Shown: piece after piece, positions 5,667 to 58,449 of the stretch | Layout of the letters: the number at the start of each line of letters is the position of its first letter | Numbering within the stretch: the stretch's first letter is position 1 | Assembly (NCBI GenBank): GCA_000722615.1 | Contig: JOKI01000012.1 | Location: 62,001 to 126,000 of the forward strand | Origin: Pseudorhizobium pelagicum | Lineage (GTDB): Bacteria; Pseudomonadota; Alphaproteobacteria; Rhizobiales; Rhizobiaceae | Length of the DNA stretch: 64,000 nucleotides | Reading direction: 5' to 3' | The notes under the pieces: model-generated | Told to the model about the DNA's origin: nothing | What the model saw: the letters and a program-made list of their open reading frames with translations, nothing else | Databases searched by the model: none | Made by a program: the position numbers and the translations under genes

Positions 5667-6416
5667 TTGACCAGCTGGCAGTGCCCATATTGCAACCATT
5701 TCACCATCGTTTCTCATAAAAACCGTACGATGCAGACTATTCGTCTCAATGAGAAATCAAAACAGGGACCGGCTGGCCTTGAAGTAACCTCAACCGCCTG
5801 CGCAAACCCGGAGTGCATCGAGCTCACTGTCGATTTGGCGTTCGGACAAGTGGAGGTCATCCCACGTACCCATTCCGCTCCATTGCTCAGGCTTTTGCCG
5901 ATGCCCAGAGTACTCCGACGCCGCCTGCTTCCCGAAGCCAAGGTAATATCACTTCCTGATGAGGTTCCCGATGAGATTAAGATTACCTATTCGGAGGCTG
6001 TTCTTATCGCAGACCTAAGCGGCAGGGCCTCTGCCGCAATGGCGCGTCGCTGCCTCCAGGGCATCGTTCGAGATTTTTTCCAGGTACCCCAAGAGAAGCG
6101 GGGCAACCTGGGTGCCGAACTTAGCTTGGTCAAAGAACAAATATCCCCGGACCTTTGGTCAGATATTGTGGCCCTCAGAAGCGTGGGGGATATTGGGGCT
6201 CATATGGATAAAAACGTCAATGAAATCATTGATGTGTCGCCTGATGAAGCCAAGATACTTATTCAATTAATCGAGACTCTATTCACTGAGTGGTACATCG
6301 CGAGAGCTAAGCGCCGCCAACGCAGCGAGTCGTTGGCGACAATGTTGTCATCTAAGCGCGATGCTCAGAAACTTGCCAAGGCCTCTGCACGAGTGGGGGA
6401 CGAACCGGAATCGTGA
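5667..6416 (+). CDS. DUF4145-domain protein
   Basis: 249 residues from a TTG start preceded by GAGGA. An N-terminal zinc-ribbon-like CPYC plus CANPEC (about residues 6-50) is followed by the DUF4145 core: SGRASAAMARRCLQGIVRDF near 120 and DIGAHMDKN near 170, matching the family's (A)RR-L and IGxxGxH-type pattern. The C-terminus is charged. DUF4145 proteins are often found with mobile or defence genes. Function is unknown. It stands alone between the hydantoinase locus and attL. Confidence 0.72.
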   Translation: MTSWQCPYCNHFTIVSHKNRTMQTIRLNEKSKQGPAGLEVTSTACANPECIELTVDLAFGQVEVIPRTHSAPLLRLLPMPRVLRRRLLPEAKVISLPDEVPDEIKITYSEAVLIADLSGRASAAMARRCLQGIVRDFFQVPQEKRGNLGAELSLVKEQISPDLWSDIVALRSVGDIGAHMDKNVNEIIDVSPDEAKILIQLIETLFTEWYIARAKRRQRSESLATMLSSKRDAQKLAKASARVGDEPES

Positions 6417-6560: not shown

Positions 6561-6705
6561 CGATCAAGAACATCCGAGTAAACAAGCTCCGCGATTTTGC
6601 ACGCAAATGCAGGTTTTCGCGCTTCTTTTGCTCGTTTATACCGCTGCTTACCTAGCGCCGGAGCGGCTGTAACCGGACAATGAGAAGCAAAATCAAATAG
6701 GAAAA
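6561..6705. other. Degenerate copy of a phage right-end (attP arm) sequence
   Basis: This 145-bp stretch lies outside attL yet resembles, in the same orientation, the phage right end at 58228-58373. Shared blocks include CGATCAAGAAC, ATTTTGCACGCAA(A/C)TGCA and GCGCCG(G/A)AGCGGCTG(T/C)AAC, in the same order and near the same spacing. The simplest reading is that it is the right end of an earlier related element left in the same tRNA site. The rest of 6417-6705 shows no convincing gene. Confidence 0.6.
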
Positions 6706-6753
6706 ATGGTGCTGCTAGAGAGATTTGAACTCTCGGCCTCTCCCTTACCAAGG
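6706..6753. repeat. attL: 48-bp direct repeat, tRNA-Thr 3'-half fragment
   Basis: Identical over 48 bp to 58374-58421, with mismatches immediately outside at both ends (6705 a/g, 6754 a/g). The repeat runs from the CCA end of tRNA-Thr, read on the minus strand, through the T arm into the anticodon stem-loop. Here the 5' half of the tRNA is missing, so this copy is non-functional as a tRNA and marks the left junction. Confidence 0.93.
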
Positions 6754-6816
6754 AAGCGGCCCACGTTGCGTAAACAGCCATAATCATTGCAGACATTGTA
6801 GCAGTGCAGTATTCAC

Positions 6817-6882: not shown

Positions 6883-6917
6883 CGCAAGGTTGCTCCGTCC
6901 CCTGGAGCAACCTTGCG
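6883..6917. terminator. Strong hairpin upstream of tcmP
   Basis: A perfect 14-bp stem (CGCAAGGTTGCTCC pairing with its complement) encloses a 7-nt loop. No clear T-run follows on either strand, so it may be an insulating or Rho-assisted terminator between attL and tcmP, or an attenuator. It lies directly before the ribosome site of the gene at 6938. Confidence 0.55.
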
Positions 6918-6937: not shown

Positions 6938-7762
6938 ATGGGCGAACTAGTTCCTGGTGACGATGGCTTGCCGGCCGAGGAGGTAGGCAGCTGGGCGACA
7001 GAGAAACACGACTATCTCTGTCGATACATCGACATCTCTCGCGGCGTTAGGCGCATGTTCGTCGCCCCTGGCAAGGCGGGAGCAACTTATGTCGATCTCT
7101 TTTGCGGCCCTGGCAGAGCGAAGATAAAAGATGGGGGCTTCATCGACGGTGGTTGCGTTGCGGCCTGGCGGAAAAGCGTTGCCGGTGGTGCGCCTTTCTC
7201 GAAGGTCTATATAGCAGATCTCGATGAGGTAAGGCTGAATGCCGCTACCGACCGCCTTAAGGCTGCCGGTGCACCGGTGGAGGCTTTCTTGGGCCCGGCT
7301 CAGGTCACAGCCAGCGAGATTGTCTCTAAGCTAGACATCTATGGTCTTCATTTTGCCTTCCTGGACCCGTTCAGCTTAGGCGTTCTGGAATTCGATATTT
7401 TCAAGACTCTCGCAAAGCGGAAGAGGATGGATATCCTCGTCCACCTTAACAAGATGGACCTGCAGCGGAACTTGGGTCGAAACATCAAGGCGGACGCTTC
7501 GGCGTTGGACGCTTTCGCTCCCGGCTGGAGGGCTGTAGTAGATGTGGCGCAGGGTCAGAGAGCGATAAGGGGCGAACTTGTTGATCACTGGCGTTCACTG
7601 GTCGAGCAGGCCGGGTTCGATCCCTCGGCCGAGATGAAGCTGATCAAAGGTGGCCAGGAACAGCACCTGTACTGGCTGCTGCTGGTTGCTGCGCACGAGC
7701 AGGCTCACAAATTCTGGAAAATTGCGGCAAACAAGGAAAAGCAGGGTAGCTTCGAATTCTAA
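6938..7762 (+). CDS. tcmP: Three-Cys-motif partner protein TcmP
   Basis: 274 residues from ATG 6938, with GGAGAG seven bases upstream; an earlier start would read through the hairpin. The N-terminus has EKHDYLCRYIDI and then the methyltransferase-like YVDLFCGPGR at about 51-60, followed by FLDPFSLGVLEFD near 140. These are hallmarks of the TcmP family, which is known to occur beside Gp37/Gp68 three-Cys proteins, exactly as here, where the partner is convergent with a 4-bp overlap. The biochemical role is not established; a SAM-binding Rossmann fold is inferred from the motif. It sits beside attL, a usual place for accessory cargo. Confidence 0.85.
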   Translation: MGELVPGDDGLPAEEVGSWATEKHDYLCRYIDISRGVRRMFVAPGKAGATYVDLFCGPGRAKIKDGGFIDGGCVAAWRKSVAGGAPFSKVYIADLDEVRLNAATDRLKAAGAPVEAFLGPAQVTASEIVSKLDIYGLHFAFLDPFSLGVLEFDIFKTLAKRKRMDILVHLNKMDLQRNLGRNIKADASALDAFAPGWRAVVDVAQGQRAIRGELVDHWRSLVEQAGFDPSAEMKLIKGGQEQHLYWLLLVAAHEQAHKFWKIAANKEKQGSFEF

Positions 7763-8508
7763 GCCGCAGCAACCGGCATTTCGTCCCATACCCTGCCACG
7801 ATAGCTGCGGCCTGTAGCTTTCTTGTTCTTCCCGCCCCACTGCTTGAAAAAGAATGCTGCGCCAGCGTCGGTGCACAGATCAAAGATCTCGTCGATCCAC
7901 TCCGGATCCATCGGCCTAGCATTCGGGCCGCTCTCCCCCCCGACAATAGCCCAGTGAATACCGTCAAGCCTGCCGTCGGCAACCGAGCCGATCAGAGGTT
8001 CAAAGGAAACGAAACGAATCGCGGCTGGCACCTGGCGGAGCTCATCGAGGCGGTGGATGACACGATCGTCTTCAACGCTTGCACCGAGCCAGACATTAGG
8101 CAACACGTCAAAGCCTGAGGAAAGCACCTCAGCCATCCGGTCCGGCCGTTTCGTCAGGATTTGATAGGTGTGGCGTGGTGTTCTCTTCATCACCTCCCAG
8201 ACGCGCCCGATGAAGTCGCTAGGCACGTCAGGGTGGAAGAGGTCAGACATCGAGTTAACGAACACGTTGCGAGGCCTCGACCACTTCTCCGGTACCGAAA
8301 GAGCCGCCTCGTCCAGCCTCAGGACCCCGGTCCATTTCGCCCGACCGCCGCTCTTCCGCGTCAACCCCCGGTACTTGTCGACGCCCATCGCTTCCAGCCT
8401 CGCGGCCATCCGCATGGCATAGCAGTTGGTGCAGCCGGCACTCATGATCGTGCACCCGGCAACAGGGTTCCACGTCGCGTCCGTCCACTCTATCGATGTA
8501 TCGGCCAT
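7759..8508 (-). CDS. Phage Gp37/Gp68 family (DUF5131) three-Cys-motif protein
   Basis: 249 residues. The N-terminus IEWTDATWNPVAGC starts the family signature and the three cysteines C19, C26 and C29 (C-x6-C-x2-C) are present, followed by NCYA. Later family marks are NVFVNSMSDLFHPD, YQILTKRPDRM and VGGESGPNARPM. The Cys spacing is reminiscent of iron-sulfur proteins related to radical SAM enzymes, but no activity is proven. It is convergent with tcmP and separate from the integrase at 8536, so the two genes form a small cassette at the left end of the prophage. Confidence 0.88.
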   Translation of the reverse strand: MADTSIEWTDATWNPVAGCTIMSAGCTNCYAMRMAARLEAMGVDKYRGLTRKSGGRAKWTGVLRLDEAALSVPEKWSRPRNVFVNSMSDLFHPDVPSDFIGRVWEVMKRTPRHTYQILTKRPDRMAEVLSSGFDVLPNVWLGASVEDDRVIHRLDELRQVPAAIRFVSFEPLIGSVADGRLDGIHWAIVGGESGPNARPMDPEWIDEIFDLCTDAGAAFFFKQWGGKNKKATGRSYRGRVWDEMPVAAA

Positions 8509-9860: not shown

Positions 9861-10036
9861 CGTGAAGCCTCCGGATTTTTCTTCAAGGCGTTGCCGCTGG
9901 TGACCATGGTATAGCCGTCTGCGAAGCGGACGAGACGGCTGTTCATGACCTTGGTTCGGATCATGACCTCGCATGGCTGGCCTTTTCGCCCCTGTCGGTT
10001 CCAGCGGAAAATGTAGGGAAGAGATCGATCAGCCAT
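9857..10036 (-). CDS. 59-residue phage protein, unknown
   Basis: ATG at 10034-10036 and TGA at 9857-9859. It overlaps the ASCH gene upstream and the HTH gene downstream, so it is a coupled member of the operon. The peptide begins MADRSLPYIFRWNR and contains KGQPCEVMIRTKVMNSRLVRF, basic and with one cysteine. Both ends fall precisely in overlapping stop/start motifs, which supports it as a real gene. Function unknown. Confidence 0.7.
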   Translation of the reverse strand: MADRSLPYIFRWNRQGRKGQPCEVMIRTKVMNSRLVRFADGYTMVTSGNALKKNPEASR

Positions 10037-10538
10037 CGAACAAGCTCCGCTGCGCTTCGGCGGGCTTCAGGCGCGGTCGTTCGATTTGATCCTGGTGGAC
10101 CTCCTCCATCGTCGCCGGCATGCGCTTTCGCCACTCAAAGAACCCAAGGGCACCTTTCAAAGGGATCGGCTTTTCCAGCGGCGTCTGCTCGGCAAGGACA
10201 ATGCCGTAACGCCCGAAGAACCACGGGCTGTCATGGTTCTCCACCACATCGACGATCGTAGCTGTGCCGATGATCGCGCCGAAGTCTGGCGTCTGCGTCA
10301 ACGACATCTCCAGAGGCGGCACGCTCACCGGGTGAACATAGCCATGCAGGACGTTGAGATAGTCCTCGCGGTCTTCCTCATAGTTGCGCTTGTTATAGGC
10401 GCTGGCATGGATGCAGATCGGGCCGCGCAGCTTCGTGGTCCACTTGCGGTTCTCAATGTCTTTCCAGCCGTGGACGATCGCGTGGGCCCATGGCTGGCGA
10501 ATCGACAGGGCAAGGCTGGGGAGCATGATGTCAGTCAT
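10029..10538 (-). CDS. ASCH-domain protein
   Basis: 169 residues from ATG 10538, overlapping the stop of the Lar-like gene. The N-terminus ALSIRQPWAHAIVHGWKDIENR is the typical ASCH start, followed by the GPICIHAS strand, TATIVDVVEN and GALGFFEW. ASCH domains are RNA- or nucleic-acid-related beta-barrels similar to PUA/YTH and are frequent in phages. The substrate is unknown. It belongs to the leftward early operon. Confidence 0.85.
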   Translation of the reverse strand: MTDIMLPSLALSIRQPWAHAIVHGWKDIENRKWTTKLRGPICIHASAYNKRNYEEDREDYLNVLHGYVHPVSVPPLEMSLTQTPDFGAIIGTATIVDVVENHDSPWFFGRYGIVLAEQTPLEKPIPLKGALGFFEWRKRMPATMEEVHQDQIERPRLKPAEAQRSLFDG

Positions 10539-11418
10539 CGGACCCCACCTCCCTCGGCTGCGGTGATGGGAGAGTGGCCTCCGTATCTGCCCATGGCTCA
10601 AGACGGCAGAACGTTGGATCGACCGCTTGATAAAGAAGGTGGTACGCCTCAGAAACATCGTTCGCGATCAGAGCGTCACGTATCGCGATTACTGTCTCGG
10701 CTGGCAGGGTGACTACCGCATGCGGAACGGGAGCGGGCGTCACAGCAAGGGTGCGAATGGCGTCAGCGATGGCAACGCCGGCTTCGGATCTCTTAGGGAA
10801 GATGCCGGTCTTGATGTCGTGAGCTATCCAGTTCTTGTCGCGGAATGCCTCCGCTGCGGTCGCGGCTTCTGCCAGCGCCTCACGGCGCGCATAGTCCTTC
10901 GCCTTGGCGATCTCGTCACGCATCCGTTTCATGCTGTAGCGCGGGCCGTCGTCACCGATCACATTCGGTTGGGGCGATGGGTTGGCGGCCCGTAGCATCG
11001 CCTTGAAAGCAGATGCCATGGCGGTGCACCCGTCCTCGTCCCGAGGTGCGGAATGGTAAGCCTCTTCCCCTGCAAGGAGCATATCCTCAGTCGGCTCGTA
11101 GTTATCCAGCGCGACATCGCCGACAATGGCAGCGAGATCGTCGGCTGGCTCCATGAAGACATGATCGCTCTCGACGGTGCGACCAGCATAAAGCTCAGTG
11201 ATCGTATAGGTGCCGACAGCTATGGTCGGCTTCCCCCGCACATTCGGCTGGGGCGCGGGTGCGCGGCGGTTCCACCAATCGGTGGCGATCTGAGGGGTGA
11301 TCTCACCGTCGGCCGGAAGAGGGCCTAGCGCCTGGCACTGCTGGCACTGGATCTCCTTGCCGAAATGTTTGAGGCGATCGCCGCCACAGAACGGGCATGG
11401 CAGAAGCTTGTCGGTCAC
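10531..11418 (-). CDS. Lar-like zinc-ribbon (restriction alleviation) modular protein
   Basis: 295 residues from GTG 11418, overlapping the methylase stop. Residues 5-45 are a Lar-type zinc ribbon: LPCPFCGGDRL, IQCQQCQALGP and WWNRRAP. The rest is a chain of short, apparently unrelated modules separated by proline-rich linkers (PAPQPNV, PSPQPNV, PSPQPREV). Lar proteins relieve host type I restriction, which would suit its place beside a DNA adenine methylase; only the ribbon supports that here. Confidence 0.72.
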   Translation of the reverse strand: MTDKLLPCPFCGGDRLKHFGKEIQCQQCQALGPLPADGEITPQIATDWWNRRAPAPQPNVRGKPTIAVGTYTITELYAGRTVESDHVFMEPADDLAAIVGDVALDNYEPTEDMLLAGEEAYHSAPRDEDGCTAMASAFKAMLRAANPSPQPNVIGDDGPRYSMKRMRDEIAKAKDYARREALAEAATAAEAFRDKNWIAHDIKTGIFPKRSEAGVAIADAIRTLAVTPAPVPHAVVTLPAETVIAIRDALIANDVSEAYHLLYQAVDPTFCRLEPWADTEATLPSPQPREVGSDD

Positions 11419-12290
11419 GCGGCGTCTCCCGTGAGATTGGAGAAAAGCGGGGATCGCTCGGCATGGAGGCGCGAAGCGCAGTGCGGGTTGATCCACAGAA
11501 CCTCAGTTCGATCTAAGGCGCCGTCGGCATGCGCAGCCACTTCGACCCGCTCCCAGCCGGTAAGATGTTGATCGTAAGTCTCGGAGGGGTAGCCCGACAG
11601 AACCACGGCTGCACGGCAGCTCACGATGCGGTCGAGCAACTGGATGTGCTGCTCGTCGGTCAGCTCGTGCTTGTACGCATGATATTGCGCGCCGCTGCGC
11701 CGCTTCTGCGATCGGGTGTCAGGGACGTACGGCGGGTCGAGGTAGATCAGAGCCTCGGCTTCGTCATACCGATCGATGATTTGAAAGGCTGGCCGGTTCT
11801 CGATCAGAACCCCTTGCATGCGATCTGTGACCGCCTGCAGCGCGCCTGGTAGTGTCGGCCATTCGCCGGCCGGCAACGCACCACCCCGGTTGACCATGCT
11901 GGCCCGAAAGCCTGTGCTCTTCTGGCTTATCGCCGAGCTTGAGCCGTGTCCCATGTAGGAGCGCACGACGAGGCGGCGAGCGCGCTCGATCGGTTCTTCG
12001 GTCGGATCGAACGCGGCATCATACTCTTCGCGCGAAAATGGGGTCAGGTCTATCAAGCGGCGCAACTCGCTGGCGCTTGAGGTGTCTCGAAGCACCCTGA
12101 AAAGGTTGACCACCTCGCCGTCGAGGTCGTTGTAGCATTCACCCATAGAGCGCGGTTTGCGAAGCAGAACGGATGCGGCTCCACCGAACGGCTCGACATA
12201 GAGACGATGCGCGGGGAAGTGGCTGATGATCCAAGGGGCGAGGCGCCACTTGCCGCCGAGGTAGCGGAGAACGGGACGGGTTGGCGTCAT
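11415..12290 (-). CDS. D12-class DNA adenine N6-methyltransferase
   Basis: 291 residues, a normal length for Dam-type enzymes. Visible motifs are RYLGGKWRLAPWI near 9 (motif X), EPFGGAASVLLRK near 33 (SAM-binding motif I), YNDLDGEVVNLFRVLRD, and the catalytic IYLDPPYVPDT near 183. It would methylate adenine in a short target and protect phage DNA from restriction. It is coupled to its neighbours by overlapping start and stop codons. The target sequence cannot be read off. Confidence 0.9.
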   Translation of the reverse strand: MTPTRPVLRYLGGKWRLAPWIISHFPAHRLYVEPFGGAASVLLRKPRSMGECYNDLDGEVVNLFRVLRDTSSASELRRLIDLTPFSREEYDAAFDPTEEPIERARRLVVRSYMGHGSSSAISQKSTGFRASMVNRGGALPAGEWPTLPGALQAVTDRMQGVLIENRPAFQIIDRYDEAEALIYLDPPYVPDTRSQKRRSGAQYHAYKHELTDEQHIQLLDRIVSCRAAVVLSGYPSETYDQHLTGWERVEVAAHADGALDRTEVLWINPHCASRLHAERSPLFSNLTGDAA

Positions 12291-58198: not shown

Positions 58199-58253
58199 TG
58201 GCGATCAGTTAAGCCTACGGCCGGCGTCGATCAAGAACGCTTCAAGAACATGT

Positions 58254-58269
58254 TGCACGGATTTTGCAC
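58254..58269. promoter_or_regulatory. Putative integrase arm-type site (right)
   Basis: TGCACGGATTTTGCAC, 15 of 16 identical to 6817-6832 near attL. The segment 58199-58373 has no convincing gene and probably is the right attP arm. Confidence 0.5.
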
Positions 58270-58373
58270 GCAACTGCACGTCAATTCGCACTTTGTTCTG
58301 TTTCTTCATGCGGTGTCGCGCATGAGCGCCGAAGCGGCTGCAACAGCGAAAGGCCTGCAAAATAAGGGAAGTG

Positions 58374-58421
58374 ATGGTGCTGCTAGAGAGATTTGAACTC
58401 TCGGCCTCTCCCTTACCAAGG
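58374..58421. repeat. attR: 48-bp direct repeat within tRNA-Thr
   Basis: Identical to 6706-6753. This copy joins to the host-derived 5' half of the tRNA (58422-58449), so phage DNA restores the 3' half and keeps the gene functional. Confidence 0.93.
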
Positions 58422-58449
58422 GAGTGCTCTACCCCTGAGCTATAGCAGC
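58375..58449 (-). tRNA. tRNA-Thr (anticodon GGT)
   Basis: Read on the minus strand: acceptor GCTGCTA pairs with TAGCAGC, discriminator A, encoded CCA (58377-58375). Anticodon stem CTCCC/GGGAG with loop TTGGTAA gives anticodon GGT, reading ACC threonine codons. T arm AGAG-TTCAAAT-CTCT. The 3' half is the attR repeat. Confidence 0.95.

Follow-up and report, generated by a model that had tools for sequence, protein, structure and literature searches.

TcmP and DUF5131 are encoded side by side at one end of a prophage in the window (the whole 64,000-nucleotide stretch of Pseudorhizobium pelagicum DNA analysed here). We have found that their pairing is near-obligate for TcmP and that, judging by sequence comparison between loci, TcmP is exchanged over a constant DUF5131. 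The pair very probably forms a two-enzyme module. Tentatively, we read it as a self-contained mobile cassette for the modification of nucleic acid, carried as prophage cargo, with immunity against other phages as its most likely role.

The gene pair and its prophage

The prophage, of ~51.7 kb, lies in a tRNA-Thr gene and spans about 6.7–58.4 kb of the window, its borders being taken from a 48-bp repeat; tcmP and the DUF5131 gene sit between attL and the integrase. The features are:

6706–6753, no strand: attL core, 48 bp, within the 3′ part of tRNA-Thr, with an exact copy at 58374–58421
6707–6778, minus strand: tRNA-Thr remnant containing the attL core
6883–6917, no strand: inverted repeat with 14-bp arms, both perfect, around a 7-base loop; 20 bases separate it from the tcmP start codon
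6938–7762, plus strand: tcmP, open reading frame of 274 residues, TIGR04474, motifs DLFCGPG (53–59) and D143-P144
7759–7762, no strand: 4-bp overlap of the stop codons of the convergent tcmP and DUF5131 genes
7759–8508, minus strand: DUF5131 (phage Gp37/Gp68) gene, open reading frame of 249 residues, PF07505, with C19-x6-C26-x2-C29
8536–9705, minus strand: tyrosine integrase, PF00589, adjoining the pair
58374–58421, no strand: second copy of the 48-bp core, lying within the full tRNA-Thr gene and marking the right end of the element
58375–58449, minus strand: full tRNA-Thr gene

The first-pass annotation had described two convergent genes with a 4-bp overlap, a SAM-type motif in TcmP, a three-cysteine motif in a Gp37/Gp68-family partner, and a position between a hairpin and the integrase beside attL, and in all of this it was correct. 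TcmP scores 159.4 bits against TIGR04474 (tcm_partner, curated cut-off 53) and DUF5131 317.7 bits against PF07505 (gathering cut-off 28.9), so that both of the adjacent genes stand above the curated cut-offs of their families, and it is the gene overlapping tcmP that carries the three cysteines. The window TcmP is of a short class, without the C-terminal part of the TcmPs of 340–430 residues. Its third-position G + C content of 0.64 is below the values for the DUF5131 gene (0.72) and for the integrase (0.74), a difference consistent with a separate origin.

A viral contig of 52,532 bp in IMG/VR carries a tcmP identical to that of the window. In relatives, tRNA-Thr and the right flank were found and the left flank matched elsewhere or weakly; none showed a joined empty site, and the borders of the element therefore rest on the 48-bp repeat. 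The two ends (6561–6756 and 58228–58424) are 73% alike for ~150 bp past the att core, indicating either that the phage carries a stretch like that beyond the tRNA or that there was an older insertion there. Directly outside attL, at 5667–6416 on the plus strand, is a gene for a DUF4145 protein that weakly matches the PD-T7-4 defence model (4.8e-10). Nearby prophage genes on the minus strand encode an ASCH-like protein (10029–10658, phrog_3193) and a DNA methyltransferase (11415–12290, phrog_56). The inverted repeat, just upstream of the tcmP start codon, is possibly in the tcmP leader. Its pattern, written from the window itself, occurred in 0 of 100 shuffles; the exact arm is unique in the genome, with one further copy at 1 mismatch. 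It is absent from terminator-like sites, and we rejected it as a terminator; an RNA family search there returned the tRNA remnant only.

The first-pass annotation was right to see a real two-gene cassette on a mobile element, joining a SAM-methyltransferase-like protein to a three-cysteine, radical-SAM-like one whose kin act on nucleic acids, and wrong to suppose that it might be undescribed. PADLOC-DB 2.0.0 lists the pair as the phage-defence candidates PDC-M41 and PDC-M30, and the NCBIfam name of TcmP already calls it a “partner” protein. The window DUF5131 matches both B models (PDC-M41B at 1.2e-104, PDC-M30B at 1.4e-95), and the window TcmP matches one PDC-M41A model with a weak fit (8e-9, 33.5 bits); among 20 TcmPs, 14 match one PDC-M30A model and 11 one PDC-M41A model, the two sets overlapping. 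The pair thus belongs to a catalogued candidate family and is not a new kind. The available text of PMC10855318 gives a PDC-M30 prediction for 32 out of 100 P. aeruginosa strains and phage resistance for 68.8% of those 32, a correlation only, and most such candidates in the core defensome await validation according to the available text of PMC12988326.

Pairing and exchange of partners

In a sample of 289 genomes of the class, TcmP scored above the cut-off at 18 places in 17 genomes, rising to 23 genomes at E 0.001; the count for DUF5131 was 36 genomes. Judged by coordinates, a DUF5131 lies within 1 kb of all but one of these TcmP places (17 of 18); the sole exception, G281:C75, starts at base 138 of its contig. 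In a phylum sample of 299 genomes, TcmP was above the cut-off at 21 places in 19 genomes, against 40 genomes at E 0.001. All 19 genomes are paired with DUF5131: 16 new loci (L163–L178) all have it adjacent, and G000, G026 and G110 were paired in the class sample.

Adjacency is found in every orientation class. Among 54 pairs (17 from class genomes including the window, 2 from Limnohabitans, 30 viral, 2 from phages and 3 from plasmids, with unpaired loci and duplicate, DUF5131-centred copies of a place set aside), 23 are convergent, 30 co-directional (DUF5131 first in 18, TcmP first in 12) and 1 divergent; the 3′ ends overlap by 4–89 bp in 22 of the 23 convergent pairs. The dependence is not mutual, many genomes carrying DUF5131 without TcmP. 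Of the best 80 of at least 595 viral loci, 30 have TcmP beside DUF5131 and 50 have no recognised TcmP, contig edges included; these loci were chosen by a DUF5131 query and their shares are not population rates. The commonness of DUF5131 without TcmP counts against the cassette reading.

Partners are exchanged between loci. Across 53 pairs (without L139), identity between loci in DUF5131 shows almost no correlation with identity in TcmP (Spearman 0.10), and in 22 of the 45 locus pairs with DUF5131 identity of at least 70% the TcmPs are less than 25% identical. The loci nearest to the window by TcmP (L127, L061 and L176 at 57, 56 and 55%) have DUF5131s 52, 73 and 74% identical to that of the window, and the nearest by DUF5131 (L164 at 80%, L058 at 78%) have TcmPs only 17 and 16% identical. 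The DUF5131 data from 67 pairs (L163–L178 added; L139, L083 and L004 omitted) reject the TcmP clade of the window, a group of nine rows with short TcmPs, with lnL 318 lower and p-AU = 0.00045. Both trees were quick ones with SH-aLRT support, and the tested group did not include L140, whose one DUF5131 stands with two TcmPs, one long and one short.

The same is seen close to home and in detail. Three genomes of the window's own genus (G590, G566 and G572) have DUF5131s 75–80% identical to that of the window, and the window TcmP has no blastp match in them at E 1e-3; in the regions examined around it, the DUF5131 gene is the one piece of the cassette to match window DNA, and three further matches fall far away in the window. 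Twelve loci with DUF5131s 71–99% identical carry three classes of TcmP, 40–99% identical within classes and 15–21% between them. Similar DUF5131s with unlike TcmPs place the point of exchange at or near the tail-to-tail junction. A single DUF5131 can also stand with two TcmPs, as on plasmids of Burkholderia, Paraburkholderia and Acidovorax, on pSymA of S. meliloti and in G531.

Folds and predicted chemistry

The top match of the TcmP structure model (pLDDT 90.4) is Trm1, a tRNA guanine methyltransferase (E 3.9e-7), followed by the carbamoyl N-methyltransferase Asc-Orf2, WbdD, RlmJ (a 23S rRNA adenine methyltransferase, 5.2e-6) and PH1915; there are 395 matches at E 0.001, and small-molecule methyltransferases rank close behind. 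A TcmP profile searched against the PDB also found RlmJ (E 0.0055), and the matches to TIGR04474 below its cut-off include RlmJ (two tested, others similar by eye). The model comparisons thus put TcmP nearest to RNA methyltransferases, but the window TcmP is a member of neither family, there being no Pfam match at E 0.1 and hence none to RlmJ (PF04378) or Trm1. Class I methyltransferases are mutually alike, so that the fold matches rank the kin of TcmP and name no substrate.

DUF5131 matches the radical SAM family TIGR04471 (radical SAM mobile pair protein A) at 1.5e-19, its 70.4 bits lying below the cut-off of 355. The structure model (pLDDT 93.9) has as its best folds two radical SAM enzymes, spore photoproduct lyase (probability 0.96–0.99) and MiaB (up to 0.91), to which DUF5131 appears weakly nearest; all matches in the fold search fall short of E 1e-3, and next in rank are designed TIM barrels and cellulases. 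The radical SAM cluster motif of the textbooks is Cx3Cx2C. In DUF5131 the motif is Cx6Cx2C, unlike the canonical motif and unlike the cysteine spacing of both fold neighbours: C19, C26 and C29, together with GGESG, are present in 42 of 42 aligned rows, and the motif is found in 66 of 67 DUF5131s of a larger set, the exception being L175, near a contig start and without the N-terminal part. In TcmP, D143 is present in 33 of 33 aligned rows and P144 in 30.

These likenesses, in motif and in model, suggest that both enzymes probably modify nucleic acid. We infer that TcmP, as a SAM-dependent methyltransferase with an RNA-methyltransferase fold, would pick the site, in tRNA or rRNA more likely than in DNA, and methylate an amino group, and that DUF5131, radical-SAM-like with its Cx6Cx2C cluster, would carry out a second, constant chemistry on the substrate of TcmP. 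The mark would alter or protect the nucleic acid in such a way that an incoming phage fares worse. Specificity would come from TcmP, the part that is exchanged, while the radical-SAM part, DUF5131, would stay constant. As to the substrate, the balance tips slightly towards RNA over DNA. The failure of DUF5131 to reach E 1e-3 with any fold, the designed TIM barrels and the cysteine spacing all weigh against this scheme.

A bolder form of the same proposal, which we consider unlikely, is a combinatorial immunity cassette in which a constant radical-SAM enzyme serves interchangeable, mutually unrelated RNA-type methyltransferases that are swapped whole at the tail-to-tail stop-codon junction. Each element would then make the same two-step RNA hypermodification at a different site, which would make the cassette a modification-based counterpart of restriction systems with exchangeable specificity subunits.

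Spore photoproduct lyase reverses a lesion, as described in the available text of PMC3742179, and a fold neighbour of this kind would suit a toxin–antitoxin or addiction pair, in which the harmful mark of one enzyme is reversed or prevented by the other. The tight linkage with overlapping 3′ ends and the mobile, patchy occurrence (17 of 289 and 19 of 299 genomes above the cut-off) also fit such a pair. DUF5131 often stands without a recognised TcmP, however, and the presence of one DUF5131 with two TcmPs, and of close DUF5131s with unrelated TcmPs, is unlike a matched pair; we regard an addiction pair as distinctly unlikely.

Mobile context and role

Relatives of DUF5131 are found in 408 of 72,556 plasmid records and 159 of 50,697 phage records. 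A tblastn search of the same phage records for relatives of the window TcmP found none, which tells against the cassette reading, though two phage records carry other TcmPs beside DUF5131. The TcmP of Ssp-JY39 (L138), a phage recorded from Synechococcus, is sister with support 100 to the TcmP of L164, from a genome (G334) of the window's own family, and the recorded host of this phage may deserve a check. Plasmids of R. leguminosarum, R. phaseoli, S. americanum and A. tumefaciens carry the pair, by annotation, in convergent orientation with ends overlapping by 4 bp. The overlap grows to 12 bp on a plasmid of Pseudochrobactrum, where the next gene encodes a restriction endonuclease; in 2 of 8 plasmid regions (Sphingomonas and Bartonella) DUF5131 has no annotated TcmP beside it.

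Neighbouring genes, picked by a longest-ORF rule, include some of defence type, which are listed here without comparison to a background rate. For 17 chromosomal loci, where 92 of the 99 ORFs chosen were scanned, the matches listed (25 of 82 families) include PtuA of Septu, DarT, DarG, and proteins of PDC-M01 and PDC-M48. Paired viral and Limnohabitans loci have S24 and HTH repressors (5 each) and integrases (3), and further a type III RM system, a type IV restriction enzyme, dCTPase and SNase proteins (88 of 119 chosen ORFs scanned). The top families beside solo viral DUF5131s are C5 DNA methylases (5), DnaB (3) and ParB-like proteins (3) (109 of 185 chosen ORFs scanned). The comparison of defence-type neighbours between paired and solo viral loci is qualitative only, counting families and not distinct ORFs among the best 25 of 45 and 25 of 75. 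Typing of the methylases beside solo DUF5131s by regular expression was discarded, as it gave no C5 enzyme against the 5 found by Pfam.

The replication genes and C5 DNA methylases near solo viral DUF5131 point to DNA and speak against an RNA-directed cassette. They would fit a pair that modifies the bases of its own element so that host nucleases do not cut, an anti-restriction role to which the action of spore photoproduct lyase on DNA would also lend itself. The pair is carried by chromosomes and plasmids too, however, and both the model and the profile of TcmP are nearest to RNA enzymes, so that DNA self-modification seems to us rather unlikely.

Some candidate companions of the pair were rejected. 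A related integrase is present in only 1 of 32 paired loci (L058), ~3.6 kb away and in the opposite relative orientation, and a tRNA lies within 1 kb of the pair in only 4 of 60 loci, counted without a control. In one genome (G462; L223:1133–4702) a pair with a TcmP of the window class is 424 bp from tRNA-Lys, adjoined by a trypsin-like ORF and an unnamed ORF of 312 residues. A SIR2-like effector suspected there from a motif seen by eye (L223:2091–3029) was dropped, PF13289 matching another contig of G462 and phmmer against the PDB finding nothing.

On pSymA of S. meliloti 1021 (L230:7962–13623) a run of genes encodes DUF5131, a long TcmP, a second TcmP in convergent orientation and a helicase of 845 residues. 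The second TcmP is 78 bp from the helicase gene, whose product is identical to a solved helicase and which we take to be hna. The available text of PMC12445080 gives log2 changes of 1.075 for Hna (SMa2245) and 1.041 for TcmP (SMa2243), and reports that hna alone restored the complete phage resistance of S. meliloti. That hna suffices without TcmP argues against an immunity role of the pair, and the window, unlike this locus, has no hna. Nor did a recurrent link between the pair and hna emerge, no Hna-like protein being found in 236 other loci, many of only 3–4 kb and too short for neighbours; Hna-like proteins occur in 6 of 247 genomes of the family.

A benefit to host or phage other than immunity, for example an RNA modification that tunes translation, or repair protecting tRNA against host defence nucleases while the phage itself grows, would suit the kinship of TcmP with RNA methyltransferases and the presence of the pair in phages and hosts alike. 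It would suit as well the lack of a functional study or published phage phenotype for TcmP, DUF5131 or the PDC candidates in open-licence PMC papers and a few preprints. The defence-type neighbours, the PADLOC candidacy and the rapid exchange of one partner resemble conflict genes more than housekeeping, and we give such a benefit a minor probability. The same three observations, together with the pairing, the adjacency in every orientation and the nucleic-acid kin, support the mobile immunity cassette, and a virus-defence role for the pair is a plausible prediction.

DUF5131 and TcmP are widespread on mobile elements, yet we found no function for them in the literature covered. To their catalogue entry we add the near-obligate pairing, the recurrent convergent overlap, the RNA-methyltransferase kinship suggested by the models and the exchange of TcmP over a constant DUF5131. 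With the pairing, the exchange and the kinship, what was an anonymous candidate becomes a testable idea which, if true, would mean a modification-based immunity whose specificity part swaps between elements.
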